From Candidatus Endomicrobium macrotermitis (GTDB taxonomy: Bacteria > Elusimicrobiota > Endomicrobiia > Endomicrobiales > Endomicrobiaceae), in the NCBI GenBank assembly GCA_031271405.1, contig JAISVT010000040.1, forward strand, positions 1 through 59,763: a stretch of DNA of 59,763 bases, written 5' to 3'. Position 1 is the stretch's first letter; the number at the start of each line of letters is the position of its first letter. The notes beneath the pieces are model-generated. The model was not told the origin of the DNA. It was given only the letters and a program-made list of their open reading frames with translations, and did not search any database. Shown here piece after piece: positions 31,061 to 59,538 of this stretch. A program made the translations under genes and the position numbers.

Positions 31061-31112
31061 CACAGCAGAGTATAAAAAGAAAAAAAGAAGTTAAAAAAAC
31101 AGGAGGTCTCAA

Positions 31113-31400: not shown

Positions 31401-31414
31401 TTTTCGTTTGATAT

Positions 31415-31454: not shown

Positions 31455-31490
31455 CCCGTCTGAAACTATAACTCTACTACAAGGTTTAAT

Positions 31491-32921: not shown

Positions 32922-33004
32922 AATGTGTCTGCGGCATGAGCTGTTTTTGCCGTCCGTTGAAATTTGCGGGGCCAATAAATAAATTTCCCGGAAGAGAGGG
33001 GCCA

Positions 33005-33709: not shown

Positions 33710-33713
33710 CTTT

Positions 33714-36624: not shown

Positions 36625-36712
36625 CGGCAATCGGAAAAGCATAAAGCGCAATTTACAAATTTTTAACCGCATCAGCCGCTGCCGTTTGCAAACTGTTAAC
36701 CGGGAGTTATAT

Positions 36713-37078
36713 ATGGCCAGAAAGTTTTTATTGTCTGCTGTTTGTTATTTTTTATTTGCCGTTCAGTCTTTTGCCGCCATAACGGCTTATCCGAATCCGT
36801 GGATTCCGGACAGCAACAGAAAAGACGCCGGAGGCGCGAATAAAGTTCACGGCACATATGAGGCCGGCATTACTTTCAGCGGTCTTCCCGTAAGCGGCGG
36901 TACGATATTTATATATAACTCTACCGGAGAAGTCATCCGTAAAATACGATGGGCTTCGGGCGATAAAGCGTCATGGGACGGCAGGAACGAAAGACACGAG
37001 TATGCGGCAAGCGGCGTGTACATATGGGTAATAAAGGAAGGCGGTACGCATACAGGCAGGATAGTAATAATAAGATAA
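36713..37078 (+). CDS. Exported FlgD-like Ig-fold protein
   Basis: 121 residues. Signal peptide 1-21 (QSFA|AI). The mature part opens with ITAYPNPWIPD and has GTIFIYNSTGEVIRKI, WDGRNERHEYAASGVYIWVIK and a final GRIVIIR strand. These are the hallmarks of the FlgD-like C-terminal Ig fold (the motifs YPNP, G-x-V-[IV]-R, W-DG, ASGVY). Such domains usually cap large secreted proteins; here the domain stands alone. The ATG at 36713 has GGGAG upstream and starts the signal peptide. Next to the PorV-TPR gene, so it may be a partner or cargo. Confidence 0.8.
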   Translation: MARKFLLSAVCYFLFAVQSFAAITAYPNPWIPDSNRKDAGGANKVHGTYEAGITFSGLPVSGGTIFIYNSTGEVIRKIRWASGDKASWDGRNERHEYAASGVYIWVIKEGGTHTGRIVIIR

Positions 37079-37130: not shown

Positions 37131-37168
37131 ATTTTGCCGGTAAAGTTAAATCGAAATTTAAAATATAG

Positions 37169-37174
37169 TATAAT
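37169..37174 (+). promoter_or_regulatory. Candidate -10 box of the ankyrin gene
   Basis: TATAAT 41 nt before the ATG, in an AT-rich stretch. No good -35 was found. A small GCCGGC-type hairpin (37183-37198) follows in the leader. Confidence 0.4.
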
Positions 37175-37214
37175 GATAAAAAACCGGCTATGCCGGCCGC
37201 AAAAGGGGTGCAAA

Positions 37215-40592: not shown

Positions 40593-40668
40593 AATTACGA
40601 ATTACGGATTACGAATCAACGGCAAAAGCCTTTGATTGGCAGTCCGTAATTTTGAATTCGTAATTGCA
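40593..40668. repeat. Heptamer-armed palindrome, AATTACG type
   Basis: Left arm 40593-40617: AATTACGAATTACGGATTAC.. (three 7-mers). Right arm 40643-40667: TCCGTAATTTTGAATTCGTA..., its reverse complement. It lies between the ankyrin gene stop and the radical SAM start. Confidence 0.78.
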
Positions 40669-40677
40669 GTTAATAAT

Positions 40678-43146: not shown

Positions 43147-44389
43147 AGTTACGCTCGCTTTCGCGTTTTTCGTAATTTTTTGCGCCGGATTATCAGCCGC
43201 ATCTAAAAAGACTGACAGCAAGTCGAATTTATTTGTCGTCGGTGATTCTATAATTTTAGGCGGCAGCGGCTCAAACGTATATTCCGAATACCTGCAGCAG
43301 TATCTCGACAAAATTTACGGGGCGGACAAAATAGCCGTTTATAACTATTCTTTCTACGATTTGAACACAAGCCAGATTTTCAAGCTGGTGGAAAATCTGT
43401 TAAGAAAGCAGAAAAATACCGAATTTGTCGTTATTACGGCAGGGGAGGCGAATTTCTACAATTTGGGAGGTTTTTCGGACTATCTCAAAGATGCAGGCAG
43501 GTATTATCCCCAAAACGAGAGCATACAAGAGTCCGAAATCGACTCGGCTCTGAAACTTAATACGGCCGTTGCGGGCATATACAATTCTCCGCGCGCGATT
43601 GCCCAAAAGGCTTTTGTCAAATACGCGTTTTCCGCGGCGTATATGACTCTTGCGGGTTCGGGTCCCAGAAAAATCGGAGGATATGTCCCTAAAGTAATAC
43701 CTTCGTTTTTATTGCTTGCCGACGATTATGAAAAAATTCCCGTAAGCCCTTATTTCGTAAGAAAATACAGAGCCGCATGGGACATGATAAACGGCGGAAA
43801 ATATAAAGAAGCCGAAGAACTGCTTTCTCTTATGCTTCTTGAAAATCCGTACGATTCCAACGTTTTTTACGCTCTGGGTTCGCTTTATCTTTTGTACGGA
43901 GGAATGGAAAACGAAGCTTTGAAAATGTTTGAAGACGGAATTTTGGTAAATCCGTTTGACAGGAACAATAAATGCTATAAAGGCCTTTCCATAATGTATA
44001 TGTCTTATGACGGCGAAGCGGTATCCGAAATTCTTTATTTCGTAAGGGTTATAAAAACGTATCTGGGCGAAGCGATACCCGAGATAAATGCCGTAAGCGC
44101 GATAGATTCTGCGGTCTACGATGAAAAAATCGCGGCCGTAAGCGGCTGGATAATTTCGGATATAAGAAAAATAAATTCTTTATGCTTGTCCAAAGGCGTT
44201 CATCTTATAGTGGCGGGCTATCCGTTTAACGCCAAGTCAAACGAGCTTTTAAAAAGCGCGTTTTATTGGAGCAATATAGATTTTGTCGATAATTCGGCAA
44301 TAAAGCCGGACGGGCAGCTTAGGCAGGCGTATTCGGATATGGCTCAAAACGTGGCCGGCGCGATAAACAGAACGGGAAGCAAAAGGTAA
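43127..44389 (+). CDS. Exported SGNH-like protein with TPR segment
   Basis: 420 residues. Signal peptide about 1-24 (GLSA|AS). Block I VVGDSIILGG (37-46) has the SGNH nucleophile S41. TAGEAN near 104-109 would be block III (N replaces the usual GxND context). The middle, about 210-290, has TPR-like helices (AWDMINGGKYKEAEELLSLM; NVFYALGSLYLLYGG). In the C-terminal part I see no Asp-x-x-His pair (DFVDNSAIKPDGQL lacks a His), so the catalytic set looks incomplete. Overlaps the radical SAM gene by 20 nt. May bind glycans or lipids rather than hydrolyse them. Confidence 0.6.
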   Translation: MNRSLLKVTLAFAFFVIFCAGLSAASKKTDSKSNLFVVGDSIILGGSGSNVYSEYLQQYLDKIYGADKIAVYNYSFYDLNTSQIFKLVENLLRKQKNTEFVVITAGEANFYNLGGFSDYLKDAGRYYPQNESIQESEIDSALKLNTAVAGIYNSPRAIAQKAFVKYAFSAAYMTLAGSGPRKIGGYVPKVIPSFLLLADDYEKIPVSPYFVRKYRAAWDMINGGKYKEAEELLSLMLLENPYDSNVFYALGSLYLLYGGMENEALKMFEDGILVNPFDRNNKCYKGLSIMYMSYDGEAVSEILYFVRVIKTYLGEAIPEINAVSAIDSAVYDEKIAAVSGWIISDIRKINSLCLSKGVHLIVAGYPFNAKSNELLKSAFYWSNIDFVDNSAIKPDGQLRQAYSDMAQNVAGAINRTGSKR

Positions 44390-44397
44390 AATAAAAA

Positions 44398-45825
44398 GTG
44401 AAAAAAGAAATAGTTGTAAACAGAACTTTGGAAGAAACGAAAGTAGCGGTGCTTGAAGACGGGCGGCTTTTCGATTTGTTCATAGAAAGGCGCGAGTCGG
44501 AAAAAATATTGAACAATATTTACAAAGGCAAGGTGCAAAATATTGTTCCCGCGCTGAATTCGGCTTTTGTCGATATCGGTTTCGGCAAAAGCGCTTATCT
44601 CGGCATGGACGACATAGTCGCTCCCAAAAACGAGAAAAACATAGAAAATGCCGTTAAACCCGGCCAGGACATTATGGTGCAGGTTTATAAAGAGCCCATA
44701 AGCACTAAAGGCCCCAAAGTGACCATGGAAATATCCCTTCCGGGAAGGCTTTTGGTTTATATGCCGTTCAGCAAGAATATCGGGATTTCAAAAAATATCG
44801 AAGACAAACAGGAATATGACAGGCTCAAAAGCATAGTTTCAAACCTTAAAAAAGATATTCCCGGCGGCATAATAGTGCGCACCGAGGCCGAAGAAGCCGA
44901 CGAAGACGAAATAAAAAAAGAAATAAAATACCTGACGAGAATCTGGTCTTCGATAGTTTCGAGATTCGAAGACGCAAAGCCCATGAGCCTTATACACAAA
45001 GATTTGGGCGTGGTGTTTCAAACGGTAAGGGATTATTTTTCGGAAGACGTTATGCTTATGCATATAGACTCCCCGAAAGAGCTTAAAGACGTTACGGAAT
45101 TCGTTAAAACGGTTTCTCCGGAATTTTTGGACAGAATAGTTTTGTACGAAGGCAAAAAGGGAATTTTTAAAGCATATGCCATAGACGAAGAAATAAAAAG
45201 GCTCAGGTCCAATAAAGCAAGGCTTAAATCCGGCGGATACCTCATAATACAGGAAGCGGAATCACTTTGCGCAATAGACGTAAACAGCGGTAAGTTTACC
45301 GCGAAAACTTCGCAGGAAGACACGGCTTTTCTTACCAATATGGAAGCTGCCGGGGAAATAGCAAGGCAGCTGCGTTTAAGAAATATCGGCGGGATAATAG
45401 TAATAGATTTTATCGATATGAAAAAGGCTTCGAACAGGCAGAAAGTTTTGGAAAAACTGCGCGAGGCGGTAAGGGGCGATAAAGCCAAAATAAAAATCTG
45501 GCCTATAACAAGGCTCGGTCTTATAGAGATGACCAGGGAAAGAAAGCGTGAGTCTCTTTTTTCTTTGATGGGAGATACCTGCCCGACCTGCCACGGTTTG
45601 GGGCTTGTCCTTTCGAAAGAATCTATTTTTATAAACGTCTGCGACGATATTGAGGAAATGAACATTGATATGCATCACGGTAAAGCGAGAATAAAGCTTA
45701 ATCCGGACGTTTATGAATATTTCAGCGAACGCAAATCGCGTTTGAAAGAGCTTTTTAAGATGGATTTTGACGTACAGCAGGACATAAACATAGACAGGGA
45801 AGATTATCAGATAATATTTGAATGA
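44398..45825 (+). CDS. rng: Ribonuclease G/E family protein
   Basis: 475 residues, RNase G size. S1-like RNA-binding region about 30-120 (NIYKGKVQNIVPALNSAFVDIG split). Catalytic site with DVNSGKF near 300 and IDFIDM near 345. The zinc-link motif CPTCHG (C395, C398) joins the dimer. Processes 16S rRNA and decays mRNA. The GTG start at 44398 is 8 nt after the previous stop; no ATG fits the conserved N-terminus better. Confidence 0.94.
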   Translation: MKKEIVVNRTLEETKVAVLEDGRLFDLFIERRESEKILNNIYKGKVQNIVPALNSAFVDIGFGKSAYLGMDDIVAPKNEKNIENAVKPGQDIMVQVYKEPISTKGPKVTMEISLPGRLLVYMPFSKNIGISKNIEDKQEYDRLKSIVSNLKKDIPGGIIVRTEAEEADEDEIKKEIKYLTRIWSSIVSRFEDAKPMSLIHKDLGVVFQTVRDYFSEDVMLMHIDSPKELKDVTEFVKTVSPEFLDRIVLYEGKKGIFKAYAIDEEIKRLRSNKARLKSGGYLIIQEAESLCAIDVNSGKFTAKTSQEDTAFLTNMEAAGEIARQLRLRNIGGIIVIDFIDMKKASNRQKVLEKLREAVRGDKAKIKIWPITRLGLIEMTRERKRESLFSLMGDTCPTCHGLGLVLSKESIFINVCDDIEEMNIDMHHGKARIKLNPDVYEYFSERKSRLKELFKMDFDVQQDINIDREDYQIIFE

Positions 45826-45832
45826 CGATTAT

Positions 45833-45945
45833 GATGCATACAGGCATAAACGCATGGATGCATGCATGGCAAAGGCAAAAAATGCGGGAAACGGGAAGCC
45901 GCTGCAATGAAATTTGCGTTCGTATCCGCGCATCTTTAAGACGCA
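45833..45945. repeat. Octamer-type intergenic repeat, second copy
   Basis: Left part 45833-45870 (ATGCATACAGGCATAAACGC.., units of GCATGGAT spaced about 8). The right part 45920-45945 (GTTCGTATCCGCGCATC) is a weaker inverse. Related to 16538-16622. Confidence 0.5.
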
Positions 45946-45952
45946 AAAGTGA

Positions 45953-45981
45953 TTGACAAATCAGGGCTTTTCGTATATACT
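45953..45981 (+). promoter_or_regulatory. Sigma-70 promoter of the tolC-hlyD-RND cluster
   Basis: TTGACA (45953-45958), 17-bp spacer, TATACT (45976-45981), 47 nt before the tolC start. Confidence 0.8.
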
Positions 45982-46028
45982 CAACAATGCGAATGCAGTA
46001 TGAAATTCGTTGAAAACCGGAGAAGAAT

Positions 46029-47474
46029 TTGTATATAAAAAGAACATTTATTAAAATTTTCGGCGCTTTTTTGTCGGGTGTTTTTTTGATTTCGGCGCTT
46101 TCTTCTTTTTCGTATGCGTCTTATGACGACCCGTTTTTGCAGCAATGCATAAAAATAGCCGAATCGCGCGATCAAAAGCTTGTAGTCGCTTATGAGCAGA
46201 TACAGCTTGCCGAAATAAGGTCTACAAGGGCAGCAAGGGCTTTCTTTCCTCAGATAATGCTTCAGCATACGAATTCAAAGGGTACGACAGCTATGTCCGC
46301 AGTCGGGCTTAGCGGTTTCGTTAAAGACGAATATAATGCCGAAGAGTACGGCGTCAGGGCTATGCAGACCATATTCGAAGGTTACAGGACGCAGGGTACA
46401 TATAAATACGAAACCATGATGGTCGACGCCGCAAGGTTTAATTATACTAAAACCCGCGAAGAGCTTCTTACGAAAGTAAAACTTGCCTATTACGAATATC
46501 TTACTCTTAATCAGGAATATAAAGCTTTGGGAAAAGCCTACGACATAGTCGACAATCTTTTTATAAAGATAAGAAACGAATATAAAGCGAAAGCCATTTC
46601 CGAACTCGATATGGTAGAGGCCGAAAATTTTAAGGACAAAGTGTCGGATATGCTTTCCGCGGCAAGAATCAATCTCGGTTTTTCCGTAAAAAAACTTATC
46701 GAAACCGTGGGGATTCACAGCCTTGACGATATTAACGCGAAAGTTTCCGACGAACTTTCCGACGACGTTACCGAAATAACTTTTACCCTTCAGGATCTGC
46801 TCAGTTTTATTTTGACGAATAACCTTGACGTCCAGACCGCGAAAGTCCAGGCGCAGATGGCCGAGATGAAAATAAAGATAAACCGTTCGAAAATAATACC
46901 TAAATTTTATTTGGAAGGTTTTTACGGAAAAAGCGGCGAAGCTTTTACTACCGAACCTTTGGAACTTACCACCGCGTGGAGCGCGTCTTTGAGAATGTCT
47001 TGGGGATTGTGGGGAAATTCGCTTGAAGCGTCGTACAATAACGAGCATACCGACCCTTCGACAATAGTCGACGCCAGCAAAAGGGTGGATACCACTTCCT
47101 ATGACGTAAAACTTGCCCTTTTGGACGATATGGGATATTTTGTGGACACAAAAGAAAGCAAAGTGAGCTATAACCAGACGTCAAGCGACTATGTGGAGGT
47201 TTTGAAAGTCAGGAGGCTTGAAACCGAAAAAGCGTATAACGATTATTTGAATTCTTTAAACAGCGCCAGAACGTCGCGGAAAGAGATAATTTTAAGGGAA
47301 AGAAAGCTCGCTTTGATGAAAAGAAGGAACGATTTGTACGAAGTTCCGACCGTAAGCCTTATGGAAGAATCATGGAAGTACGCGGAAGCGATTTCTTCTT
47401 ACGCCAGGTCTAATTACCAGAATCACGCGTCGGTAACCGAAATGGAAAGATTGACTTTGATGCCTTTAAGATAA
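46029..47474 (+). CDS. TolC-family outer-membrane efflux protein
   Basis: 481 residues. Signal peptide about 1-31 (SFSYAS|YDD). Two OEP-type halves with long amphipathic helices (LQQCIKIAESRDQKLVVAYEQIQLAEIRSTRAARAF split; EYKALGKAYDIVDNLF; NLDVQTAKVQAQMAEMKIKINRSKIIPKFYLEG split). The TTG at 46029 is chosen for the signal peptide and the GGAGAAG site before it. It is the outer-membrane duct of the pump encoded by the next three genes. Confidence 0.88.
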   Translation: MYIKRTFIKIFGAFLSGVFLISALSSFSYASYDDPFLQQCIKIAESRDQKLVVAYEQIQLAEIRSTRAARAFFPQIMLQHTNSKGTTAMSAVGLSGFVKDEYNAEEYGVRAMQTIFEGYRTQGTYKYETMMVDAARFNYTKTREELLTKVKLAYYEYLTLNQEYKALGKAYDIVDNLFIKIRNEYKAKAISELDMVEAENFKDKVSDMLSAARINLGFSVKKLIETVGIHSLDDINAKVSDELSDDVTEITFTLQDLLSFILTNNLDVQTAKVQAQMAEMKIKINRSKIIPKFYLEGFYGKSGEAFTTEPLELTTAWSASLRMSWGLWGNSLEASYNNEHTDPSTIVDASKRVDTTSYDVKLALLDDMGYFVDTKESKVSYNQTSSDYVEVLKVRRLETEKAYNDYLNSLNSARTSRKEIILRERKLALMKRRNDLYEVPTVSLMEESWKYAEAISSYARSNYQNHASVTEMERLTLMPLR

Positions 47475-47523
47475 GGTTTAAGCGTTATTAATAAGAAATT
47501 TATATAAAAACGGAGGGAGTATT

Positions 47524-48753
47524 TTGGAAAAGATTAAGTATTTTTTTTACAGTATCAAAGACAGCATATCTCATTCGATTGAAAACTACAGGGCGCGTTC
47601 GCCCCGGGCGTTCAAAAGGATCGTGTATATAGCAGCCGTATGTATGTTTTTGATTTTCGTTTCCATAGTCGTATATTTGGTGTTTTTCAATAAGAAAGAG
47701 GCGGAAGAATCGTCCGAAAGCTATGCGCAGGTAAAGGCCATGAGGGTTAAAAAAGAGGATTATACCGATAAGTACACCGTCATGGGCACGATAAAAGGCG
47801 CCATAGAAAACGATATGCGTTTTGAAATAGAAGGCTATCTGGCCATGTACAATTTTAGAGAAGGGGCAAAGATAAAAGAGGGGCAGAATATCTGTTCTCT
47901 CGACCCTAAAGACGCCATGACAAAAGCCGATTACGCGCAAAGCAAGTACAAGAGCGAAAGCTCGGCGTTTTTATCGGCGAAAGAAAGATATAAAGTTTAT
48001 GAAGAAATGTACAATATGAAAGCTCTTGCGGAAAGCAAGCTTCATGAAGCAAGATTTGAAATTCAGGCTGCGGAATCGCGCGTTAAAGCCGCCAAATCCG
48101 AACTTGAGCTTGCGCAGTCGAATTTAAAAAAGACAAATCTTGCCGCCCCGTCAAACGGCATTCTCGCGGAAATAATAATAAAGCCGGGCGAATACGTTAC
48201 GCCTCAGGACGTAGTGTGCAAATTTATAAGCGATCGCGGAACGAACTTTGAAGTCGATATTCCCGAAAAAGACATACAGAAAATTGCCGTAGGCCAAAAA
48301 GTCAAGATACTCAGCGATTCGTACCCCGATAAAGAATTTGACGGCTCGATTATAGAAATCGCTCCGGTGGTAAACGTAAGAACCAGAACTTCAACGGTAA
48401 AAGTCAATGTCGATAATTCCGAGGGGCAGCTTCGTTCCGGAATGTTTGCCAGAGGAACGATACATTTGAAAGAGCTCAAGGGCGTAGTTTTAGTTCCTAC
48501 CGACAGCATAGTTTCGCTTAATAATGCTGCATTTTTGGTGCCGGTCATAATTCCCGATTTGAAGCCGGGCGAAGGCGTAGTACAGATGAGGCCTTGCACT
48601 CTCGGCGATAAAGTCGGGGAAAAGACGGTAGTCATAGACGGGCTTAATATGGGAGAACTTGTTGTGATTGAAACGAACGGTCAGCTTTCGGACGGCGTGA
48701 AGGTGAAATATACCGAAGAAGCCGAATCGGAAGCCATACCGGTAGATTACTAA
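47524..48753 (+). CDS. HlyD/MFP-family periplasmic adaptor
   Basis: 409 residues. N-terminal anchor helix 33-54, then a lipoyl-like half (YLAMYNFREGAKIKEGQNICSL near 101-122), a helical hairpin about 135-205, a second lipoyl half (LAAPSNGILAEIIIKPGEYV) and a beta-barrel (VDIPEKDIQKIAVGQKVKI; GMFARGTI). The anchor is a TM helix, not a lipoprotein Cys. TTG start with a strong GGAGGGAG site 5 nt before. Links TolC to the RND proteins. Confidence 0.92.
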   Translation: MEKIKYFFYSIKDSISHSIENYRARSPRAFKRIVYIAAVCMFLIFVSIVVYLVFFNKKEAEESSESYAQVKAMRVKKEDYTDKYTVMGTIKGAIENDMRFEIEGYLAMYNFREGAKIKEGQNICSLDPKDAMTKADYAQSKYKSESSAFLSAKERYKVYEEMYNMKALAESKLHEARFEIQAAESRVKAAKSELELAQSNLKKTNLAAPSNGILAEIIIKPGEYVTPQDVVCKFISDRGTNFEVDIPEKDIQKIAVGQKVKILSDSYPDKEFDGSIIEIAPVVNVRTRTSTVKVNVDNSEGQLRSGMFARGTIHLKELKGVVLVPTDSIVSLNNAAFLVPVIIPDLKPGEGVVQMRPCTLGDKVGEKTVVIDGLNMGELVVIETNGQLSDGVKVKYTEEAESEAIPVDY

Positions 48754-48756
48754 AAA

Positions 48757-48893
48757 ATACAAAGTGAGGAGTTAAGAGTGCAGAGTGCAAATATTGCGTT
48801 TTCGCTTTGCGAAAACTAAAATAGGTTTCGGCAAGTCAGGAATACGGTAATTTCATTTTTCACTCTTCAATCTTCACTCTTCACTCTGCTTCT
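48757..48893. repeat. Heptamer-armed palindrome, copy C
   Basis: Left arm 48761-48790 (AAGTGAGGAGTTAAGAGTGC..., period 7), centre hairpin GTTTTCGC-TTT-GCGAAAAC (48798-48816), right arm 48856-48889 (TTTTTCACTCTTCAATCTTC..., period 7). The central 26 nt are identical (reversed) to copy A. It fills the gap between hlyD and the first RND gene and leaves no clear ribosome site for the latter. Confidence 0.82.
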
Positions 48894-48899
48894 AAAAAA

Positions 48900-51800
48900 A
48901 TGATTGATTTAGGAATAAAAAAGCCTGTTACAACCCTTATGATAGTCATTGCGTTGATGATGTTCTCGTCAATAATGACCGTCAGGATTCCCGTCGAATT
49001 AAATCCCAGCATTCAAAGCGGAATGGTAAGTGTAATAACGAGGCTTCGCGGAGGCGTCGCTTCAAGCGAAGTCGAAAAATACGTTACCCGTCCGCTTGAA
49101 GAAGTTTTTTCCGAACTTAGCGGCCTGAAGGAAATGATTTCTTCTTCAAAAGAATCCGAATCGAACGTAATGATGACTTTTCATTACGGAGTGAATACCG
49201 ATTTTATAGTCATAGACGTCCGTGAAAAGCTCGCGCTTGTAAAGCATTTGCTTCCCAAAGAAACCGAGAAACCGATTATTGCCAAATTCGAGCAGTCCGA
49301 TGCTCCGATTATAATTATAGCGTTGAGTTCCGAAAAGTTTTCTCCGGAACAGCTCAGGGAAATAGCGGAAGAGCAGATCAAAGAAAAAATAATGAGGGTT
49401 TCGGGGGTCGCCAATATTGAAATCGGCGGCGGAAGGGAGAGAAAACTTCTCATAAACATAGACAACTCAAAACTTGTCGCATACCAGCTTCCCATCCTTG
49501 AAGTGGTTCAAAAAATAAACCTTTCCAATATCTCTATTTCGGCCGGAAGCATTGACGAAGTAAATAAAAATTACGTAATCAGGGCTACCGGTGAATACGA
49601 TAACATACAAGAAATAGAAAATACCGGGATAGCCATAACTCCCTCGGGGTCGGTCATAACGATCAAAGACATAGGCACGGTAAGGGATTCGTTTTACGAA
49701 CCGACATCGTTTGCAAGGCTGGACCTTAAGCCTGTTGTTTCGCTGTACATACAAAAAGAGTCCGCGGCAAACACCATAAGCACGGCAAACGAAGCGTTAA
49801 GAGTGATAGACCGGTTAAGAACGGAGATAGATCAGAACATTGTAATAACCGTAGTTAAAAACGACGCGGAGTACATAAGCAAAGCAATTTATTCTTTGTG
49901 CGAGGCGCTGGTTGTAGGAGCCGTACTTCTTGCCGGAATTTTATTTATTTTTATGCGTAACATAAGAAATATCGTGATAGTAGGCACTACTCTTCCTTTA
50001 AGCATATTTATTTCCATACTTCTTATGTATTTTACCAAACAGACCTTTAACGTTATGACGCTAAGCGGGCTTGCCATGGGCATAGCAAACGTAATGGATA
50101 ACGCCATTGTCGTTATAGAAAACATATCGTTTCACCATCACAGAAAAACATATAAGACAAAAATGGAGCTTGTGATAAAAGGCACGGCCGAATTGTGGCA
50201 GCCTATTTTTGCTTCGACCGTTACGACAATAGTGGTATTTTTGCCTCTGGTGTTTCTTGATCCGGAAATCAGGCAGCTTTATCTGCCTTTCGGGCTTACG
50301 ATTACTTTCGCGCTTATAGCCTCTCTTATAAGTACCATGATTTTTGTACCTCCGCAGATTTACTTCTGGCAGAACAATTTCGAACTTGAATTTCAGAGCT
50401 GGTATATGTGGATAAGGCGCTTGTACGGAAAAATTTTAAAATTCGTTTTCAGGCGGCAGACTTTCGTATGGCTGTTCGTATTTGCGCTTTTTTTTACTTC
50501 GGTAAAAATTCTTCAAAGCAGGGATTCGGAGTTTATGGACGCAGGCGACGCGAACACTTTCAGGATAGGCGTGCAGTTCCCGCCGGCCACGCGCATAGAA
50601 GTTTCGAATGAAATAGTCAAAAAAATGGAAGCAAAACTTTTGACTTACAGGGACGACGTCGAAAGAGTTTCGTCCAAAGTGGAAAAACTGCATACGTTTG
50701 TCGAAGTCAAGGTTTTTAAAAACGCCGAGTATTTTAAAGAAGAATTCAGGAAAACTTTCGGCGACTATTCGCCCGCTTTCGTTTACTATCAGGATTCCAG
50801 TTCCGCCGGGAACAAAGAAATATTTACGGATTTTTACGGCCAGGATTACGACGAGCTGAAAAAGCTCGCTTTTTCGTCTTCAGGAAGGCTTCAGCAGGTG
50901 CAGGGTCTGACCGACGTGAAAATAAGAATGAGGGAAGACGAACCCGAAATAAATCTTTTTGTCGACACGCAAAGGCTTTCTAATTTCGGGCTTACGGCTT
51001 ATTATTTCGGAAACACTCTTCACTGCCAGATAAGAGGCCTTATAGCCACGCAGTACAGAACGGAAGGCAAGCAGATAGAAACTATCGCAAGGCTTACGCC
51101 GGGCACAGTAAAAAATGTCGGCGACGTATTGTTTCTTCCTCTGGTAAACGCAAAGAAACAGACTGTCCGCGTCGGGCAGGTAGCGGAAGCCAAAGAGATA
51201 AAGGCCACGCAGGAAATATGGCATAAAAATAAAAAGCGTTTTATACAGATAAGCGCCAACAGGGCAAAAATCGGACTGACCACTGCCGCAACGGGAATAA
51301 ATACGGCTTTGAAAGGCGTGAAATTCGACAGGGATTATTCTTTTAAAATATCCGGCGATTACGAAAAAACCGTGGAAAGCGAAGGGCAGTTTATGCTTGC
51401 CGTCGCGCTTACGGTAATCTTAATCTTCTTTGTTTTGGCGTCGATATTCGAGTCTTACAAACAGCCGTTTTTGATTATGTTCGCTCTGCCTTTAAGCATT
51501 ATAGGCGTGGCTTTTTCGCTTTGGATATTTAAAAAATCCATAAGTTTGGGAGTATGGATAGGGATAATGATTTTGTTCGGCTCTATAGTTTACGGTTCGA
51601 TCATTATAGTCGATAAAATAAACCAGAGAAGGCACGGCAGGACGAATATGCTCAGAGTCATATTCGAATCCTGCAAAGAGAGATTAAGGCCGGAACTCAT
51701 AACGTTCCTTATGAAAACCATCGGGCTTTTGCCTATGGTTTTAAGCCGCGACGAAGCCGCCGCAATGTGGCAGTCTTTGTCTTTAACGGTTCTTTGCGGG

Positions 51801-52010
51801 ACGATAACGGGGACGATGCTTACGCTTTTGATTATTCCCACGGCGTACTATCTTATGGAAGATCCGAAAAACAGTTTTAAAGGGGTTTTGAAAAATCTTT
51901 CGTTTATCAAAAATATTTTCGGCAGTTCGAAAAAGAAACTTAAAAAACTCGTGATAAAAAAACCGGAACAGGCAAAAGACGCGCCCAGAGTCCCGAGAAT
52001 AAAGTTTTAA
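48900..52010 (+). CDS. RND efflux pump inner-membrane protein (first of two)
   Basis: 1036 residues, full RND length. TM1 PVTTLMIVIALMMFSSI, a large periplasmic loop, TM4 with LAMGIANVMDNAIVVIENI (one Asp of the usual DD pair is Asn), a second half with a new TM start RQTFVWLFVFALFF, and TM10 LFGSIVYGSIIIVDK, where the usual charged/polar Lys/Asn is Tyr-Gly. The proton-relay set is therefore atypical. The substrate is unknown. Works with the TolC and HlyD genes upstream; the second RND gene follows after 103 bp. Confidence 0.9.
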   Translation: MIDLGIKKPVTTLMIVIALMMFSSIMTVRIPVELNPSIQSGMVSVITRLRGGVASSEVEKYVTRPLEEVFSELSGLKEMISSSKESESNVMMTFHYGVNTDFIVIDVREKLALVKHLLPKETEKPIIAKFEQSDAPIIIIALSSEKFSPEQLREIAEEQIKEKIMRVSGVANIEIGGGRERKLLINIDNSKLVAYQLPILEVVQKINLSNISISAGSIDEVNKNYVIRATGEYDNIQEIENTGIAITPSGSVITIKDIGTVRDSFYEPTSFARLDLKPVVSLYIQKESAANTISTANEALRVIDRLRTEIDQNIVITVVKNDAEYISKAIYSLCEALVVGAVLLAGILFIFMRNIRNIVIVGTTLPLSIFISILLMYFTKQTFNVMTLSGLAMGIANVMDNAIVVIENISFHHHRKTYKTKMELVIKGTAELWQPIFASTVTTIVVFLPLVFLDPEIRQLYLPFGLTITFALIASLISTMIFVPPQIYFWQNNFELEFQSWYMWIRRLYGKILKFVFRRQTFVWLFVFALFFTSVKILQSRDSEFMDAGDANTFRIGVQFPPATRIEVSNEIVKKMEAKLLTYRDDVERVSSKVEKLHTFVEVKVFKNAEYFKEEFRKTFGDYSPAFVYYQDSSSAGNKEIFTDFYGQDYDELKKLAFSSSGRLQQVQGLTDVKIRMREDEPEINLFVDTQRLSNFGLTAYYFGNTLHCQIRGLIATQYRTEGKQIETIARLTPGTVKNVGDVLFLPLVNAKKQTVRVGQVAEAKEIKATQEIWHKNKKRFIQISANRAKIGLTTAATGINTALKGVKFDRDYSFKISGDYEKTVESEGQFMLAVALTVILIFFVLASIFESYKQPFLIMFALPLSIIGVAFSLWIFKKSISLGVWIGIMILFGSIVYGSIIIVDKINQRRHGRTNMLRVIFESCKERLRPELITFLMKTIGLLPMVLSRDEAAAMWQSLSLTVLCGTITGTMLTLLIIPTAYYLMEDPKNSFKGVLKNLSFIKNIFGSSKKKLKKLVIKKPEQAKDAPRVPRIKF

Positions 52011-52021
52011 ACAATTTGCCA

Positions 52022-52093
52022 TCCGGAGCTTGTTTCAGCTCCGTAGTTAAAAAGATGAAAAACAGACCCTGAAATAAATTCAGGGCGACAAAC
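52022..52093. repeat. Intergenic double palindrome (GTCAT-like tail)
   Basis: CGGAGCTTGTTTCAGCTCCG (52025-52044) and CCCTGAAATAAATTCAGGGC followed by GACAAACT, between the two RND genes. Confidence 0.6.
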
Positions 52094-52113
52094 TAATTTA
52101 AGAGAGACGAAAA

Positions 52114-55100
52114 ATGGCTATACTCAGGCTTTCCGTTGACAGACCGGTAACAACAGTAATGATATTTTTGTCCGTAGGGCTTTTGGGGCTTATTTCTTAT
52201 ACGAGAATTCCCCAGGAACTTTTTCCGGCAATGGAATACCCCCAGATAACCATCGTTACCAAATACGAAGGCGCGGGGCCGGAAGAAGCGGAAAAACTTA
52301 TAAGCAAAATGGTTGAAGAAACCGCCGGCACCGTCAAAAACATAAAAAGAGTTTCGTCCAATTCCAAAGAGGGCGTATCCATAGTGACGTGCGAATTCAG
52401 ATGGGGAACAAATATGGATTTTGCCGCTATGGACGTGCGCGAAAAAATAGATTTGATAAAAGAGGCGTTGCCGAGGGATTCTTACGAGCCCGTCGTGCTC
52501 AAATACAATCCGACCCAGGTTGAAGCCATGATGTTGTCGGTAAGCTACGCAAACGGCGACGCTTCCCCGATGGCTATGGCCGACCTCAGGCAAACGGCTA
52601 AAAAGAGCATAAAAGACGAACTCGAAAGGCTTGAAGGCGTGGCTAAAGTGGAATTAAGGGGCGGCGAGGAAAAAGAGATCCTTGTAGAAATAGACAAAGG
52701 AAGGCTTCTTGCCAATCAGGTTTCAATAACCGAAATCATAACGTCCCTTCAAAACTCAAACATAACCTATCCCGCCGGGACAATTAAAGAAGACAAACAC
52801 GAATACCTTGTAAAAACCGTCGGCGAGTTTCAGGGTATAAGCGACGTGGCCGATCTTTCGTTTTCCAAAGTTGACTATAACATAGATCAGGCGATGAGCA
52901 CGAAAAGAGTCAGAAACAGAGGGCAGGAAACCGGCGATAAAATAGTGTTTTTAAGGGATATAGCCGACGTCAAAGAATCTTTGAAAGACAGAAAAGGTTA
53001 TTCCCGTTATCAGGGAAACGAAAACATTTCCGTCGGCATATACCAGCAGTCCGGTTCGAACTTAATAAACCTTTCCAAAGAAGTCAAGAAAAAATTAGTC
53101 GAAATAAGGGAAAGCAATAAAATTTCCGAAGATATAACCGTTCAGATCACTTCCGACCAGTCGGACTTCATTAAAGAATCCTTGGCGAATTTGTATTCAA
53201 GCGGCATACAGGGAATACTTTTGTCTTTCATACTGCTTTATTTCTTTATGAGAAGTTTTATGGCTTCGATCATAATAAACATAGCGATACCCGTAGCGCT
53301 GTGCACCACTTTAAGTTTGATGTATTTTCAGGGGATTTCCATAAACACAATGTCTTTGGGCGGACTTACAGTCGGCATAGGTATGGTTGTCGACAATTCC
53401 AATATGGTGCTTGAAAATATTTTAATGCAGTATCACAGGCTTAAGGGTACCGGAGCCGATAAAAAAGATTCCATACACGCGGCGACAAGCAGTTTGCTCG
53501 CCCCGGTGCTGAGTGCCACTTTTACGTCGGTGGCAATATTCATTCCTTTTGTTTTCGTAGCCGGAATGATAGGCCAGCTTTTCAAACAGCTTGCGCTGAC
53601 CATAACGTTTTCTCTGATATCGTCGATATTTGCCGCGATGTTTCTTGTGCCCAGGCTTGCTCTTACGGCGGACTTAAGCAAACAGTCGGTTACCGCGGGT
53701 TTAGATGCCATAAACAAATATTTTACTCCTTTATTTAAAAGAGTTTTGGACTGGAGCATGGCAAAAGTCGCATTGGTGCTTTTGATTTATGTCGCTGCCG
53801 GAGCGCTTTCTTTTGTATTGATATCCAAAGAGTTTATGCCTAAAGTCGACGAAAGAAGATTTGTGTTGAATATGACTATGCCTCCCGATACTCCTATCGA
53901 AATAACCAATGCCACTTCGAAGCGCATAGAAAAACTTATTTCGGGCTATCCCGAAGTGAGAGACATTTCGGTAAGCGTGGGTTCCACGGGAGATGACACG
54001 GGCGTCGCGTCGATAGAGTCTTTGGGCACGTATCAGGCCAGAATAATCGGAAGATTGAACAGGGAAGGAATGTCCACGGACGAGCTTGTCGCTGATATCT
54101 CGAACGAAATAAGAAAATGGAATATCAAAGGAATCGACACGGAGTTCATCACCCAGCAGGGGCTGTTCGGTTCGGGCGTAGGCGCGTCGTCCGGCCTTAT
54201 GATAGAAATAAGAGGTACGGAACTCGGCATACTTAAAAAATCGGCCGACGAAATAAGAAAAATTATGGAAGATATGCCGCAGTTTTACGGCATAAAGCTC
54301 GACCCTCCGGACGAAGTTCCCGAGCTCAGGCTTGTTATCGACAGGGAACGCGCTTCTCTTTTCGGTTTGTCCACCCAGGATATTTCGGCTATGACTTTGG
54401 CGGCGATAAAAGGTTTTGTGGCTACAAAACTTAAACTTAAAGACGACGAAATGGACATAAGGGTAAGAATGCGCCCCGAAGACCGCGACAGGCTTGACAA
54501 AATTTTAGAGATGACGGCGTATTCTCCGTGGGGTATGACCATACAGATCAAGCAGATTTCGCAGGCGAATTTTGTAAAAACTTTGCCGGCCATCAAAAGA
54601 GTCGAAGGCGAAAGAACGTATCTTTTGTCGTCAAACGTAAGAGGTAATTTTACGAAAGCGGTAACTTCTATCGAAGAAATATTGAAAGAGAGATACGACA
54701 ATAACGACGTTCACTGCGTTATTTCCGGCGAAATGCTTGCCATGAAAGAAGCGCTGTCGCAGATTTCTTTTGCGCTGGGGCTGGGCGTAATAATAATATT
54801 TATGATTTTGGCTTCCGAGTTCGAATCTCTCTACCAGCCTGTCATAGTTATGACCGCCGTTCCTCTCGGGGTTGTAGGCGCTTTGGTTTCTCTTTTTGTA
54901 ACGGGGCAGACTATCAATTCGATATCGATGCTCGGGTTTATAATGCTTGTGGGAAACGTTATCAATATATCCATTTTGCTTGTGGACAGGTTCAACCTTA
55001 TGATTGACGGCGAAAAAGAGAAAAATAAAGGATTTTTGCCGGATATTTTGACTTTAAAGAAAAAAGTCGTGGAAGTTACCGTGAAACACATACGTCCGAT

Positions 55101-55347
55101 AACTATGACCACGCTCACGACCGTTACCGGCATGCTTCCGCTTGCCATCGGGTTCGGAGGAAAAACGTCAACTAACCAGCCTATGGCCATAGCCGTTGTC
55201 GGAGGTTTATCGTTTGCGCTTGTGCTGGCTTTGATTTTTGTTCCTTACGTATATCTGGCTACAAAAGGTATGAGAAACCGCGAAGAATACGAACTTTTTA
55301 ATCCGATGTTTGCGTCAAGAAATGAATTCGACGAGCCGAATTTTTAA
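52114..55347 (+). CDS. RND efflux pump inner-membrane protein (second of two)
   Basis: 1077 residues. TM1 PVTTVMIFLSVGLLGLISY, IPQELFPAMEYPQITI (family opening), TM4 LTVGIGMVVDNSNMVLENI, TM10 LVGNVINISILLVDRFN, and a C-terminal TM block ending TMTTLTTVTGMLPLAIGFGG. It differs clearly from the first RND, so it is not a recent duplicate. Two unlike RND chains behind one HlyD/TolC pair suggest a heteromeric pump as in MdtBC. RBS AAGAGAGAC. Confidence 0.93.
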   Translation: MAILRLSVDRPVTTVMIFLSVGLLGLISYTRIPQELFPAMEYPQITIVTKYEGAGPEEAEKLISKMVEETAGTVKNIKRVSSNSKEGVSIVTCEFRWGTNMDFAAMDVREKIDLIKEALPRDSYEPVVLKYNPTQVEAMMLSVSYANGDASPMAMADLRQTAKKSIKDELERLEGVAKVELRGGEEKEILVEIDKGRLLANQVSITEIITSLQNSNITYPAGTIKEDKHEYLVKTVGEFQGISDVADLSFSKVDYNIDQAMSTKRVRNRGQETGDKIVFLRDIADVKESLKDRKGYSRYQGNENISVGIYQQSGSNLINLSKEVKKKLVEIRESNKISEDITVQITSDQSDFIKESLANLYSSGIQGILLSFILLYFFMRSFMASIIINIAIPVALCTTLSLMYFQGISINTMSLGGLTVGIGMVVDNSNMVLENILMQYHRLKGTGADKKDSIHAATSSLLAPVLSATFTSVAIFIPFVFVAGMIGQLFKQLALTITFSLISSIFAAMFLVPRLALTADLSKQSVTAGLDAINKYFTPLFKRVLDWSMAKVALVLLIYVAAGALSFVLISKEFMPKVDERRFVLNMTMPPDTPIEITNATSKRIEKLISGYPEVRDISVSVGSTGDDTGVASIESLGTYQARIIGRLNREGMSTDELVADISNEIRKWNIKGIDTEFITQQGLFGSGVGASSGLMIEIRGTELGILKKSADEIRKIMEDMPQFYGIKLDPPDEVPELRLVIDRERASLFGLSTQDISAMTLAAIKGFVATKLKLKDDEMDIRVRMRPEDRDRLDKILEMTAYSPWGMTIQIKQISQANFVKTLPAIKRVEGERTYLLSSNVRGNFTKAVTSIEEILKERYDNNDVHCVISGEMLAMKEALSQISFALGLGVIIIFMILASEFESLYQPVIVMTAVPLGVVGALVSLFVTGQTINSISMLGFIMLVGNVINISILLVDRFNLMIDGEKEKNKGFLPDILTLKKKVVEVTVKHIRPITMTTLTTVTGMLPLAIGFGGKTSTNQPMAIAVVGGLSFALVLALIFVPYVYLATKGMRNREEYELFNPMFASRNEFDEPNF

Positions 55348-55375
55348 TATTAAAAAACTAAATTATCCGATTATG

Positions 55376-55500
55376 CGCATTAGTAAAGTCCGTCATCCTG
55401 CGTGAAATCGCAGGATCCATTATAAATAAAGGCTTTTCTATAGACCCTGCAAGAGACTTCGTTTCCGCAGGAAGACAAGTGTTTGTCACGGGATAATTCT
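55376..55500. repeat. Dispersed palindrome (GTCATCCTGCG/CGCAGGATCC), well preserved
   Basis: GTCCGTCATCCTGCG-tgaaat-CGCAGGATCC (55389-55420), then a second block ACCCTGCAAGAGAC...CGCAGG...TTTGTCACGG. Fills the 189-bp gap before the TerC gene. Confidence 0.75.
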
Positions 55501-55536
55501 GTTGGAAAATAAGACTATTTTTAAAGGAAAATAAAT

Positions 55537-56439
55537 ATGATTATGTGGATTGCTTTTTGGATTATCGTAGTTGTCTCGCTTTTTATCGATTTGGTTATTC
55601 TCAACAAACGTCACGGCGACATTACCATAAAAACGGCCGTTAAAATGGTTGCTTTCTGGATAGCGCTCGCTTTGTCTTTCGGCGTTGCCGTGTATTTTGC
55701 TTTCGGAAGCGAAAAGGCGCTGGAATACGTAACGGGCTATATTGTGGAATATTCTCTTTCCGTGGACAATATGTTTGTGTTTTTAATCATATTTTCCTAT
55801 TTTGCCATACCTAAAAACCATCAGCCTAAAATTTTAATTTACGGGATTTTGGGAGCCGTGATTTTAAGATTTTTATTCGTTTTTATAGGCGTTCAACTGA
55901 TAAATTCTTTTGCGTGGATTATATACGTGTTCGGAGCAATTTTAATCTATACGGCAATTAAAATGATCCTTGACAAAGGAGACGAGGTCTCCCCGGAAAA
56001 AAACATAGCTTATAAAATTTTGAAAAAAATGTTTCCGTTTAAACAGGATGATACTTCCGGGAACTTTTTTACGAAAGAGAACGGAGTCCTCTACGCGACG
56101 CCTATGCTTGCCGCTGTTGGGGTTATCGAAATGAGCGACATTATTTTTGCGGTGGATTCGATTCCTGCTGTCCTTTCCATATCCAAAGACACGTTTATAG
56201 TCTATACGTCAAACATATTTGCGATTATAGGTTTAAGGTCGCTGTATTTTTTACTGTCCGGGCTTGCCGAAAAATTCAAGTATTTAAAATACGGCGTCGC
56301 CGTAATTTTGTTTTTTGTAGGATTAAAAATGCTCGTTTCCCACTATTTTCACATCCCCACGGCAGTTTCGCTTGCCGTAATAATCGTCATTCTTTCGGCA
56401 TCAATACTTATTTCGGTACTGAAAAATAAGAAAAATTAA
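55537..56439 (+). CDS. TerC/Alx-family membrane protein
   Basis: 300 residues, about eight TM helices. Family motifs VEYSLSVDNMFVF (about 70-82) and IFAVDSIPAVLSI (about 206-218), each with the conserved Asp that lines the ion path. Related proteins export manganese or take part in metalation of exported proteins and tellurite resistance. No yybP-ykoY riboswitch was recognised upstream. RBS AAAGGAAA, 7 nt before the ATG. Confidence 0.92.
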   Translation: MIMWIAFWIIVVVSLFIDLVILNKRHGDITIKTAVKMVAFWIALALSFGVAVYFAFGSEKALEYVTGYIVEYSLSVDNMFVFLIIFSYFAIPKNHQPKILIYGILGAVILRFLFVFIGVQLINSFAWIIYVFGAILIYTAIKMILDKGDEVSPEKNIAYKILKKMFPFKQDDTSGNFFTKENGVLYATPMLAAVGVIEMSDIIFAVDSIPAVLSISKDTFIVYTSNIFAIIGLRSLYFLLSGLAEKFKYLKYGVAVILFFVGLKMLVSHYFHIPTAVSLAVIIVILSASILISVLKNKKN

Positions 56440-56564
56440 AAATTCTTGCGGGGGTGCGGGTTTTAAGTTATAAATGTCGTACGCCATACAGTTCAGGCTG
56501 TTTAGTGTTTTGAGGTTTCACAATAATTTTGCAAGTAGCACAAACGGTTTTTTAACAGGGAATG

Positions 56565-56570
56565 TATAAT
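56565..56570 (+). promoter_or_regulatory. Candidate -10 box upstream of the unknown exported protein
   Basis: TATAAT 68 nt before the chosen start. No convincing -35. The leader also has an unused AAAGGAGG at 56591-56598 with no start codon behind it. Confidence 0.35.
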
Positions 56571-56637
56571 ATCCACAGGAGTCAAATAAAAAAAGGAGGT
56601 ATAGTCAGCAGTACAAAAAATAAAAATGGAGGGTGTC

Positions 56638-59379
56638 ATGAAAAAAAGAATTTGGTCGTATGTCTTGGCAGCAGTTTTAGCAATTTCTTTAGCAGGAGCA
56701 ACATTTGCCGCTCCTGTGCAGACAGAAAACGAGGCCGGCGGTCCGGCTGCGGTCAGCAAAGCGGGGACAATTACTAATTCCATGGAGGTTGGCAGTTCAA
56801 TCGGCTCGGAAGACATCAATAAGGCTATGGGCAGAATATCTCAGGTTTTCAATTATATCGCCGGAATACTGGTAAATGTTATAGACGGAGATAGGAATGT
56901 AACCATTTTCGATGCGGGCGAGGTAAGAGCGACTATGGGTTACAATTCAAACGGAACGTTTACTTTGACTAGTTTGAACTTTTTCGGAAGAGATCAGCAT
57001 GCAATTGATAAAGCGGGCGGATTTGAAAAATTTCTTTCGGCTTTCGGTGTTCCGGCTCAGCAGTTACAGGCAGTTTTGGGTAACTTTAACGAGCAAGGAC
57101 AAATGGTAACAAAGCCTACGGAAGAAACAGATGCCCCTAAATATGGTGTAGTTGGATGGATGAATAAAGCGGCGGAAACTTTGAAAAAAGGCGTAAATCA
57201 TTCTATATCGATAGATTTGACAGCTGCCGGCGGGGCAAGTTTAACGGTAAAAGAAAATGGGAATGCTCTGTTTTCGTATTCGGGAACGCCTAACATACCC
57301 GGCAATGTTGCTACTCCTGGACATGATGGCCTTTTTGTGACTGCTGAATATAAATATGATAATCACGGTTTCTTAAAAGAGGTTGTCCAAACAGTTTTTG
57401 AAGTTGACGTATTGCAGAGTTTGACGGAAGACCAGAAGAAGACTATGACTGAACTCGGGATATCAGAAAACGAATATGAGAAAATGGTAAAAGCTAAAGA
57501 AAACTGGCTCGCTGCAAATCCGTCAAAGAAAGCTGAAGATTATGATAAGACAGCTGCCGGTCAGGAACTTCAAAAAATAACCAGTCTTTCTCAAGGTAAA
57601 GGTGATACAGTATATAAACAAGGTACAAGAACTACATATTACAAAGAAGGGAAAGCGCGTTATGTAACCGACGGGAATGGTACTAAACTTTCAGAAACCA
57701 CATATTCGAAGCTGGGAAACATAAATTCTTCTAAAGACTTGGAAACCAATAATGTAACGTATTTTGTCGGCGGTCAAGCTGCATATGTTGTAAATCATAC
57801 TGGAAGCAGAATTCAGGAATATGTGCGTCATTCGAACGGCACAATGGATGGTGTAAAAACATATAGTGATAGCGGTGTTGCGCAAATAACCGCGTATTCT
57901 TACGGAAAAGCTTTGGCAACTGCAGATGTAACAAGCGACGGAAAGCCGAATTCAACTTTTGATTCTTTAAGGACGGCATGGAAAGATATAGTTACGAATA
58001 ATTCGGTTAGTTCTATAGAGGGGCTTATAGAGGCTAATTCCATAACAAATATCCAGTATTATGCGGAGCATATGAGTAATACTGCTTTTATGACTGTTAT
58101 GGGAATGAATGCTGATGACGTAGTTGCTCAAGAAAAGACAAAAATACGTCTGGAAAATGAACTGAATGCGATAATAGGCGGAGAACAAAAATCGTTGTCT
58201 GCAGAAGAAGAAAGTTTGCTTAGGAAGCAAACGGCAATGGCATGGACTGCAATGCTCAATAATAACGGATTTTCAGCAGTAGGTTCTGCGCGTTTTACTT
58301 TAAATGAAAGTACGCATGAGGTCGGTGGAGAGGGCGGAGATGTGTGGTCATGGAGTCACTCTCAAAGTTCCGGAAGCGGTACTGAACAAGAATTCAGAGA
58401 CTCTTATACAAACAGTCGTAGGATAAGCGTTGCAACTGATGAAGATTTTAATTCTTCCGGCGTGAGAAGAACAGCTACGGTAACTAGTGCCGCGTCTGCC
58501 AGAGTTTATAGTAAAACTCTCGGTGTTAACACTACTGTTATGAGTATGGGACAAAGCTTATTCACTTTAAATTGTGTTAGAGATCTTGGTTCCACGGTAA
58601 CGGATACTACACCGCCGGCGAGAGAAGTTGATTATACGTATGATCCAGTGATTGAAGGAGAATTAAAAGGATTTGTCGGTGAAAATGGAGAACCATTGCT
58701 AAATGAACAAGGTGAACCTATGACGGAAGCTGAAATTGCCGACTATATTGAGAATGGCGGAATAGTTTATGCTTCAGTCAATGCTGAGTGGGCTAATGTA
58801 ATGGACGGCGGAGCCGGGGAAGTTATGGGCGAAGAAATGCTCGTTCAGATTACAGATGTTGCAGCATATAAGCAATTGGCCGGTAGCGTAAATAAAACGG
58901 TTATGCTTATGGGTGATGTAACTACTGATGTTGACGGTAAGAAAACAATGGTAATGAACACTACCTACGGCGGCGGAGTTTTAACTGATACCGGTGCTAT
59001 TAGTGAGATGAAAGATCTTATCATAAGAATCGGAAAAGGAGAAGCCACTGAAGAAGAGATTTCCAATCCCAATAACAAATGGATAAAGGATAACATTGAC
59101 AGCAATGTGGAATTTTTCAAAGAGCAAGGAATAGAAAATGCATCTTTGGCGGAGAAATGGAACAAATTGGTAGAGGCCGGTAAGAAGGATGGTGTTGATT
59201 ATAGTAATGATACGGAAGTTGCCATAAGAGCGGTTTTTGATGAGATATATAATAAAATAATTGAATCAGTGCCGCTTCGCGAGATGAACAACATAGAAGA
59301 GAATAAGCAATCTCCTCTAAATAGAACACTTTTCATGCTTGGCGTGGCGATAGAAGGGGCAGTTCAGGCTATATTTTAG
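56638..59379 (+). CDS. Large exported protein of unknown family
   Basis: 913 residues; I do not recognise the family. Signal peptide 1-24 (AGATFA|APV). The ATG at 56638 is preferred over 56626 because GGAGGG lies just before it and a clean MKKR signal start results. Seen in the chain: 60-130 beta-rich with GYNSNGTFTLTSLNFFG; 170-240 beta strands (SISIDLTAAGGASLTV); 240-300 charged helices; 310-430 a run of short Tyr-rich strands (YYKEGKARYVTDGNGT, VTYFVGGQAAYVVNH, RIQEYVRHSNGTMDG, AQITAYSYGKALA) that look like YD/RHS-style or similar repeats; 590-640 Ser-rich; 660-700 acidic (GELKGFVGENGEPLLNEQGE); a helical end. One Cys only (near 655). Bases look more AT-rich with different codon choice in the second half. 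Flanked by a terminator and an IS3 element. Confidence 0.6.
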   Translation: MKKRIWSYVLAAVLAISLAGATFAAPVQTENEAGGPAAVSKAGTITNSMEVGSSIGSEDINKAMGRISQVFNYIAGILVNVIDGDRNVTIFDAGEVRATMGYNSNGTFTLTSLNFFGRDQHAIDKAGGFEKFLSAFGVPAQQLQAVLGNFNEQGQMVTKPTEETDAPKYGVVGWMNKAAETLKKGVNHSISIDLTAAGGASLTVKENGNALFSYSGTPNIPGNVATPGHDGLFVTAEYKYDNHGFLKEVVQTVFEVDVLQSLTEDQKKTMTELGISENEYEKMVKAKENWLAANPSKKAEDYDKTAAGQELQKITSLSQGKGDTVYKQGTRTTYYKEGKARYVTDGNGTKLSETTYSKLGNINSSKDLETNNVTYFVGGQAAYVVNHTGSRIQEYVRHSNGTMDGVKTYSDSGVAQITAYSYGKALATADVTSDGKPNSTFDSLRTAWKDIVTNNSVSSIEGLIEANSITNIQYYAEHMSNTAFMTVMGMNADDVVAQEKTKIRLENELNAIIGGEQKSLSAEEESLLRKQTAMAWTAMLNNNGFSAVGSARFTLNESTHEVGGEGGDVWSWSHSQSSGSGTEQEFRDSYTNSRRISVATDEDFNSSGVRRTATVTSAASARVYSKTLGVNTTVMSMGQSLFTLNCVRDLGSTVTDTTPPAREVDYTYDPVIEGELKGFVGENGEPLLNEQGEPMTEAEIADYIENGGIVYASVNAEWANVMDGGAGEVMGEEMLVQITDVAAYKQLAGSVNKTVMLMGDVTTDVDGKKTMVMNTTYGGGVLTDTGAISEMKDLIIRIGKGEATEEEISNPNNKWIKDNIDSNVEFFKEQGIENASLAEKWNKLVEAGKKDGVDYSNDTEVAIRAVFDEIYNKIIESVPLREMNNIEENKQSPLNRTLFMLGVAIEGAVQAIF

Positions 59380-59426
59380 AAAAGCAAAAGATGTCCTTAA
59401 GTTTGTTTTGAAGTAAAAGTAAAAAG

Positions 59427-59464
59427 GCAGGTCGGGTGTGTCACAAAACCCGATCTGCTTTTTT
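59427..59464 (+). terminator. Rho-independent terminator
   Basis: GCAGGTCGGGT (59427-59437, last 11 nt paired) / ACCCGATCTGC (59448-59458), then TTTTTT. One G-U pair. Ends the unknown exported protein gene. Confidence 0.9.
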
Positions 59465-59538
59465 ACATATAAATGAGGTCAGGAAGTCTATATGATACTT
59501 TTAACAAAATAAATAAAAGCAATAAGTATAACCTTAAT

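Follow-up and report, generated by a model that had tools for sequence, protein, structure and literature searches.

What is the large exported protein encoded at the end of this contig of Candidatus Endomicrobium macrotermitis, and does the transposase remnant beside it mark a recent arrival? The window, i.e. the whole 59,763-nt stretch of DNA analysed here, is contig C50 of a 1.89-Mb genome (G000). A preliminary description, made from the letters of the window, saw in one open frame an exported protein of no nameable family, possibly acquired or strain-variable. We use the name FAM for this protein and for the family to which we found it to belong. Its fast change and the location of its relatives beside a gene for a giant protein lead us to view FAM as probably a variable surface partner of that giant.

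The gene and its control signals

The frame on the plus strand (Table 1) is open for 913 codons and encodes an exported protein, as first described; the N-terminal signal peptide, read from the sequence, is conserved among the homologues. The ribosome-binding site GGAGGG sits in a ATGGAGGGTGTCATG block that is identical in four genomes in the upstream alignment, and an alternative in-frame ATG at 56626 falls within the same block. The leader and the strong terminator attributed to the gene were both confirmed, the former as a conserved promoter and the latter as a hairpin with a 19-bp stem (shuffle z of −7.2 for the 101 nt folded, 59375–59475), and the adjoining element is the C-terminal part of an IS3-type transposase, located at the contig end.

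Eleven upstream regions, taken from several genera, were aligned; in the promoter, the columns TT-ACAA, TTT-CA and TA-AAT are invariant. The tandem repeats of the TTTCACAA type, with their 11-bp period, and the TATAAT box are kept across genera in which the protein differs strongly; the promoter is much better conserved than the protein that it serves. The 11-bp period is reminiscent of the boxes of OmpR/PhoB-type regulators. A search with the repeat pattern matched the FAM promoter at 56517–56537 as well as four other places in the same genome, and similar promoters were seen at contig ends (G000:C32:55038, C24:159 and C40:159). On C32 and C24, the repeats stand 5' of ORFs for putatively exported proteins; these open with a signal-like MERTKGL or MERTEGL (MERTKGL...KKALVLFVLCSMLVNGFAYG) and are cut by the contig ends. 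No Rfam element was found in the leader by an Rfam search.

Table 1. Positions of the FAM gene, its parts and its surroundings in the window.
Feature	Position	Strand	Remarks
Ancestral upstream block	30030..37078	+	Aldolase, histidine kinase, response regulator, sigma factor, PorV-TPR, FlgD-Ig/T9SS-CTD-like
19-kb block between PorV pair and FAM in Endomicrobium	37134..56439	+	Includes RND pumps, TerC
Conserved promoter	56516..56570	+	Tandem 11-bp direct repeats TTTCACAATAA TTTTGCAAGTA ..., then −10 TATAAT (56565–56570)
Ribosome-binding site GGAGGG	56628..56633	+	4 nt 5' of ATG 56638
FAM gene	56638..59379	+	913-aa exported protein
Sec signal peptide	56638..56709	+	Residues 1–24, MKKRIWSYVLAAVLAISLAGATFA followed by APV; cleavage between ATFA and APV, placed by eye
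Conserved N-domain	56818..57417	+	Residues 61–260, VFNYxAGxLxSVxDxDRNVTxxDxGxxRA...; beta-rich, YD-like pattern
YD-like beta-strand ladder (predicted)	57604..57957	+	Residues 323–440; AlphaFold2, Foldseek, profile match to c4
Ser/Thr-rich variable linker	58093..58632	+	Residues 486–665, without confident structure
C-terminal OB-fold domain (predicted)	58633..58977	+	Residues 666–780; type common to G030 (other genus)
Helical acidic tail	58978..59376	+	Residues 781–913; longer than in most homologues
Intrinsic terminator	59419..59466	+	19-bp stem, 10-nt loop, U-run
IS3-type transposase, C-terminal part, at contig end	59556..59762	−	Outside the FAM system; family read from the sequence

An uncatalogued family in one class of Elusimicrobiota

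No curated model covers FAM: the best matches had E-values of 0.077 (Pfam) and 0.0097 (NCBIfam), all far below the cut-off, and for FAM alone these two collections contained no YD or RHS match up to E 1, NCBIfam no RHS-core profile match, and PDB sequence profiles only chance immunoglobulin-like matches. Profile searches also gave no Por_Secre_tail or CHU_C match, i.e. no C-terminal sorting domain of T9SS type A or B. An assignment to defence systems or phages was rejected in view of the lack of PADLOC and PHROGs matches.

Of 100 related genomes searched with the single sequence, 19 contained relatives; a profile built from 18 members matched 46 of the 341 genomes of the phylum. Full-length matches are confined to the class of the window; outside it, the YD-like stretch alone is matched. 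The matched records include Endomicrobiaceae, Ca. Endomicrobium embiratermitis (G003, a member of the window's genus) and Ca. Praeruminimicrobium, but two of the four genomes of the genus, G001 and G002, gave no match in the profile search. The protein is thus without a curated family, as stated at the outset, but it is not an orphan: among the genomes searched, FAM constitutes an undescribed family of exported proteins of approximately 600–1350 residues in a single class, the Endomicrobia, where it occurs in members from termite guts and their relatives. In one genome (G042, L036:12764–17393), a gene that reads as ferritin-like is flanked by two FAM copies in opposite orientation.

Genus group g8 comprises what we take to be flagellate endosymbionts; the naming of the group follows PMC11257099. 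In two reduced genomes of this group (G048:C27 and G339:C15), the FAM frame is in pieces or interrupted by stop codons, and in G048 the frames of two partner genes described below, c4 and c2, are broken as well.

An ancestral gene neighbourhood

Several genera share a gene order in which an aldolase, a histidine kinase, one or more response regulators, a sigma factor, a PorV-TPR protein and a FlgD-Ig/T9SS-tail-like protein are followed by FAM, c2, c4, a small membrane protein and c5. The stretch FAM-c2-c4-small-c5 was found in G013, G021, G029, G044, G030, G037 and others. In other genera, FAM stands directly 3' of the block that runs from the aldolase to the FlgD-Ig gene; in the window, these are separated by some 19 kb (Table 1), and the c2-c4-small-c5 set lies on another contig (G000:C41), a split that is also found in G003. 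Within the upstream block, the PorV-family protein at 34438–36624 is fused to TPRs and scores above the NCBIfam PorV_fam cut-off, and the FlgD-Ig/T9SS-tail-like protein 3' of it (36590–37078) has a weak T9SS-tail match; the pair may hint at a type IX-like system in Endomicrobia. A second PorV/TPR-like protein, at 5540–7081, shares 26–28% identity with the first.

The gene that follows FAM in relatives, c2, encodes a conserved membrane-anchored protein; a kinship between c2 and the C-terminal domain of FAM was considered, but it is not detectable. The c4 product resembles FAM in being an exported, conserved neighbour with a beta ladder in common (hhalign probability 97.9, E 4.5e-13 for the FAM ladder against c4) and differs from it in lacking the OB domain in most genomes and in evolving slowly (81% identity between congeners). 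In the window's genome, c4 marginally matches YD_repeat_2x (TIGR01643; 16.5 bits versus a cut-off of 15.8 bits) in NCBIfam, and PDB sequence profiles gave no match. In G062 (L119:5621–8377), the two modules are naturally fused: a c4-type YD protein has a C-terminal domain like that of FAM.

The fifth member, c5, is a giant exported protein that, like FAM, has a conserved front and a variable body. Between the window's genome and G003, its first 600 residues are 74–84% identical and the body 25–39%, and the GC3 of the gene drops from 0.42 in the first 600 residues to about 0.30 thereafter, with a significant change point (p 5e-4) at residue 557 in G000, 571 in G003 and 641 in G030. The body has weak DEAD/SecA-like matches, and PDB sequence profiles likewise gave weak SecA matches. 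Frames of c5 were located in G000:C41 (L109:1–7764), G003:C10 (L110:8751–17831) and L031:14047–19998; relatives of its N-terminal domain, with motifs QDLHSH, LEGAYG and GGFHT, occur in many giant frames of the order, up to 11,814 codons long, and class-wide (e.g. in G044, G064 and G061). The order of the motifs may resemble that of the ChaN/TraB/Tiki superfamily.

Is FAM still tied to this set, or does it now act alone? If it were a surface protein or an adhesin working by itself on the surfaces of host or gut, it would owe its variation to contact with host or phage, and its link to the giant set would be historical. It has its own promoter and terminator, is unlinked from the c2-c4-c5 genes in the window's genus and several other genera, contains a Ser-rich variable linker and is retained in members of g8. 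However, c4 is present in 29 of the 30 genomes of the class with FAM versus 12 of the 49 without (Fisher p 6e-11, from counts taken by hand from the profile searches and without phylogenetic correction); some genomes with c4 or c2 have no detectable FAM. The YD ladder common to FAM and c4 also argues against independence, and no anchor such as a lipobox, LPXTG motif, T9SS tail or autotransporter barrel was recognised in FAM. We regard the adhesin as possible, if on the doubtful side, and continue to favour a partner of the giant.

A foreign cassette, recently brought in beside the IS element, appears quite unlikely. The GC3 of the FAM gene is 0.340 compared with 0.475 ± 0.034 for the genes of the window (z −3.95, or −5.0 once FAM itself is left out of the reference), the IS3 remnant lies about 180 bp 3' of the stop codon and the family is missing from the two congeners named above. 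The odd composition noted earlier is real, but it belongs to this copy: as a trait of the whole family it was rejected, strong deviation being seen only here and in G063, and an apparent break in GC3 within the gene, at residue 116, is not significant (p 0.21). In G003, FAM has the same position, orientation and upstream flank, with ordinary genes downstream, and both the ancestral neighbourhood and the promoter are conserved in other genera. Because 18 consecutive genes are syntenic between the window and Ca. E. embiratermitis, recent acquisition of the locus, also in the form of a genomic island, was rejected.

Domain architecture and fold

The full-length AlphaFold2 model of FAM, based on an alignment of five sequences, has a pLDDT of 53 and a pTM of 0.38 and is reliable only locally. 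The most confident beta ladder, of about ten strands, is at about residues 324–430 (block pLDDT mostly 60–80). Beta-rich stretches had been noted at the outset, with an RHS/YD fold match named among those that would point to a role; in Foldseek all 11 matches at E ≤ 1e-3 are of the RHS/Tc/teneurin class (RhsA, Salmonella Rhs, Tre23-Rhs, TcB-TcC, Tse5 and teneurins). Since the full-length model is weak, we count this similarity as local (E 3e-7 to 2e-4, with a whole-length TM-score of about 0.1 and pLDDT of 60–80 in the region). The Ser-rich and acidic segments were also correctly picked out: Ser makes up 12.8% of residues 486–665 and Glu 12.1% of residues 666–913.

The C-terminal domain was modelled from a homologue, L106, with good confidence (pLDDT 84.5, pTM 0.80). 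Foldseek matched this domain mostly to OB folds, and it has their defining layout, a barrel of five strands in which a helix separates strand 3 from strand 4. The OB fold of the window copy rests on homology to L106 and on the matching strand order in its AlphaFold2 model. Like Stn1/Ten1, the anticodon-binding OB domains of AspRS and LysRS, SSB and the exotoxin OB domains, the FAM domain has the order b1-b2-b3-a-b4-b5 and is matched by Foldseek; unlike them, it is part of an exported protein, and there is no sequence kinship. On these locally reliable models, FAM would consist of a beta ladder of the YD/Rhs kind and a C-terminal OB fold, joined by a Ser-rich linker.

The predicted ladder of short Tyr/Gly-rich strands is what FAM would have in common with RhsA, TcB-TcC, Tse5 and the teneurins, and one could suppose that FAM is an Rhs/Tc-like polymorphic toxin with the YD part as the cocoon and the C-terminal part as the payload, the more so as the same C-domain type occurs in different genera. 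We consider this very unlikely. FAM has few repeats, probably too few strands for a closed cocoon, and on its own no curated YD or RHS match; it is restricted to one class and ends in a predicted OB fold, with no catalytic toxin domain found at its C-terminus in Pfam, NCBIfam or PADLOC. No immunity gene lies 3' of it either: the terminator and the IS occupy the contig to its end, and the place after FAM is taken by c2 in relatives.

Rapid divergence and possible exchange of the C-domain

Between the window and G003, FAM is only 28% (BLAST) or 36% identical (global alignment, 744 positions), compared with 55–96% for the syntenic neighbours. Congeneric copies of c2 share 77–78% identity (77% in the pair with G003), and FAM falls below both c2 and c4 in every congeneric pair for which all three were measured, the gap usually being at least 20 points.

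This divergence is uneven along the protein. The N-domain (44%, or 44–47% for residues 61–260) and the signal peptide (62%) are nearest to those of G003, but for the C-terminal domain the identity is 55% to G030, from another genus, versus 30% to G003. Accordingly, the C-domain data reject a grouping of the window copy with G003 (p 0.003), which the N-domain data do not (p 0.37), and the best C-domain tree joins the window copy with G030 (support 90/96). As the groupings tested were chosen after the identities were known, these trees are suggestive of, and do not prove, an exchange of the C-domain between genera; a partial replacement of the allele is possible.

With its conserved synteny and, at the same time, low identity, absence from two of four congeners and apparent exchange of the C-domain, FAM is an old locus that carries a variable allele. 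Of the two properties suggested in the preliminary description, 'strain-variable' therefore fits the allele and 'acquired', at least in recent times, does not fit the locus; the description would have been abandoned for a gene with ordinary codon use and synteny in all relatives, and what we found is atypical codon use together with synteny in G003 and absence from two other genomes of the genus. The fast change can also reflect relaxed constraint, but that FAM is simply dispensable and drifting, its divergence being functionally meaningless, is the least probable of the explanations considered: it is missing in some congeners and broken in G048 and G339, but some 27 genomes have long intact frames, motifs such as DP-x3-G and DGxGFQ are kept in the family, and its promoter has been preserved better than the protein.

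Possible role

We propose that FAM works outside the cytoplasm as a structural partner to the giant c5, in which the YD ladder of FAM serves as a scaffold and the OB domain as a variable recognition surface, and give this reading a probability of about one half. In the ancestral arrangement, the FAM gene led a set that continued with c2, c4, the small membrane protein and c5. Its product would be exported via Sec and act, non-catalytically, beyond the cytoplasmic membrane, in the envelope or on the surface. The ladder of FAM, perhaps with the YD protein c4, would build an extended or cage-like beta scaffold, and the variable OB domain would provide the recognition surface. Jointly, these parts may hold, fold or present c5, which itself has an equally variable body behind a conserved export domain, and at the cell surface antagonism or the matching of partners may drive the rapid change of FAM.

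A more far-reaching version is rather unlikely, in our judgement, but worth stating: the locus might be an undescribed polymorphic giant-protein export/contact system of Endomicrobia, in which an exchangeable c5 body with a SecA-like motor, behind a conserved front of ∼600 residues, is matched by an exchangeable FAM, the two being swapped as a matched pair with no change in c2, c4 or the promoter. Polymorphic toxins and giant contact-dependent effectors resemble c5 in their conserved N-terminal export part and variable, differently composed body. They differ from the FAM-c5 locus, where no immunity gene and no nuclease or ADP-ribosyl domain was identified, and from c5 in its weak DEAD/SecA-like matches in the giant body.

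Implications

Elusimicrobiota have been reported among the phyla richest in huge proteins, which were not assignable to functional classes (PMC11573180), and the words giant, YD repeat, secretion and SecA are absent from a comparison of 67 Endomicrobia MAGs (PMC11257099). The FAM family, with its partners c2 and c4 and a shared promoter type, provides a first conserved gene context for one lineage of giant proteins, and FAM, c2, c4 and c5 form a testable partner set. Because promoter and locus are conserved while the protein is hypervariable, FAM is a candidate for a part in antagonism at the surface or in contact with the host during the transition to flagellate symbiosis, in which the FAM family decays.
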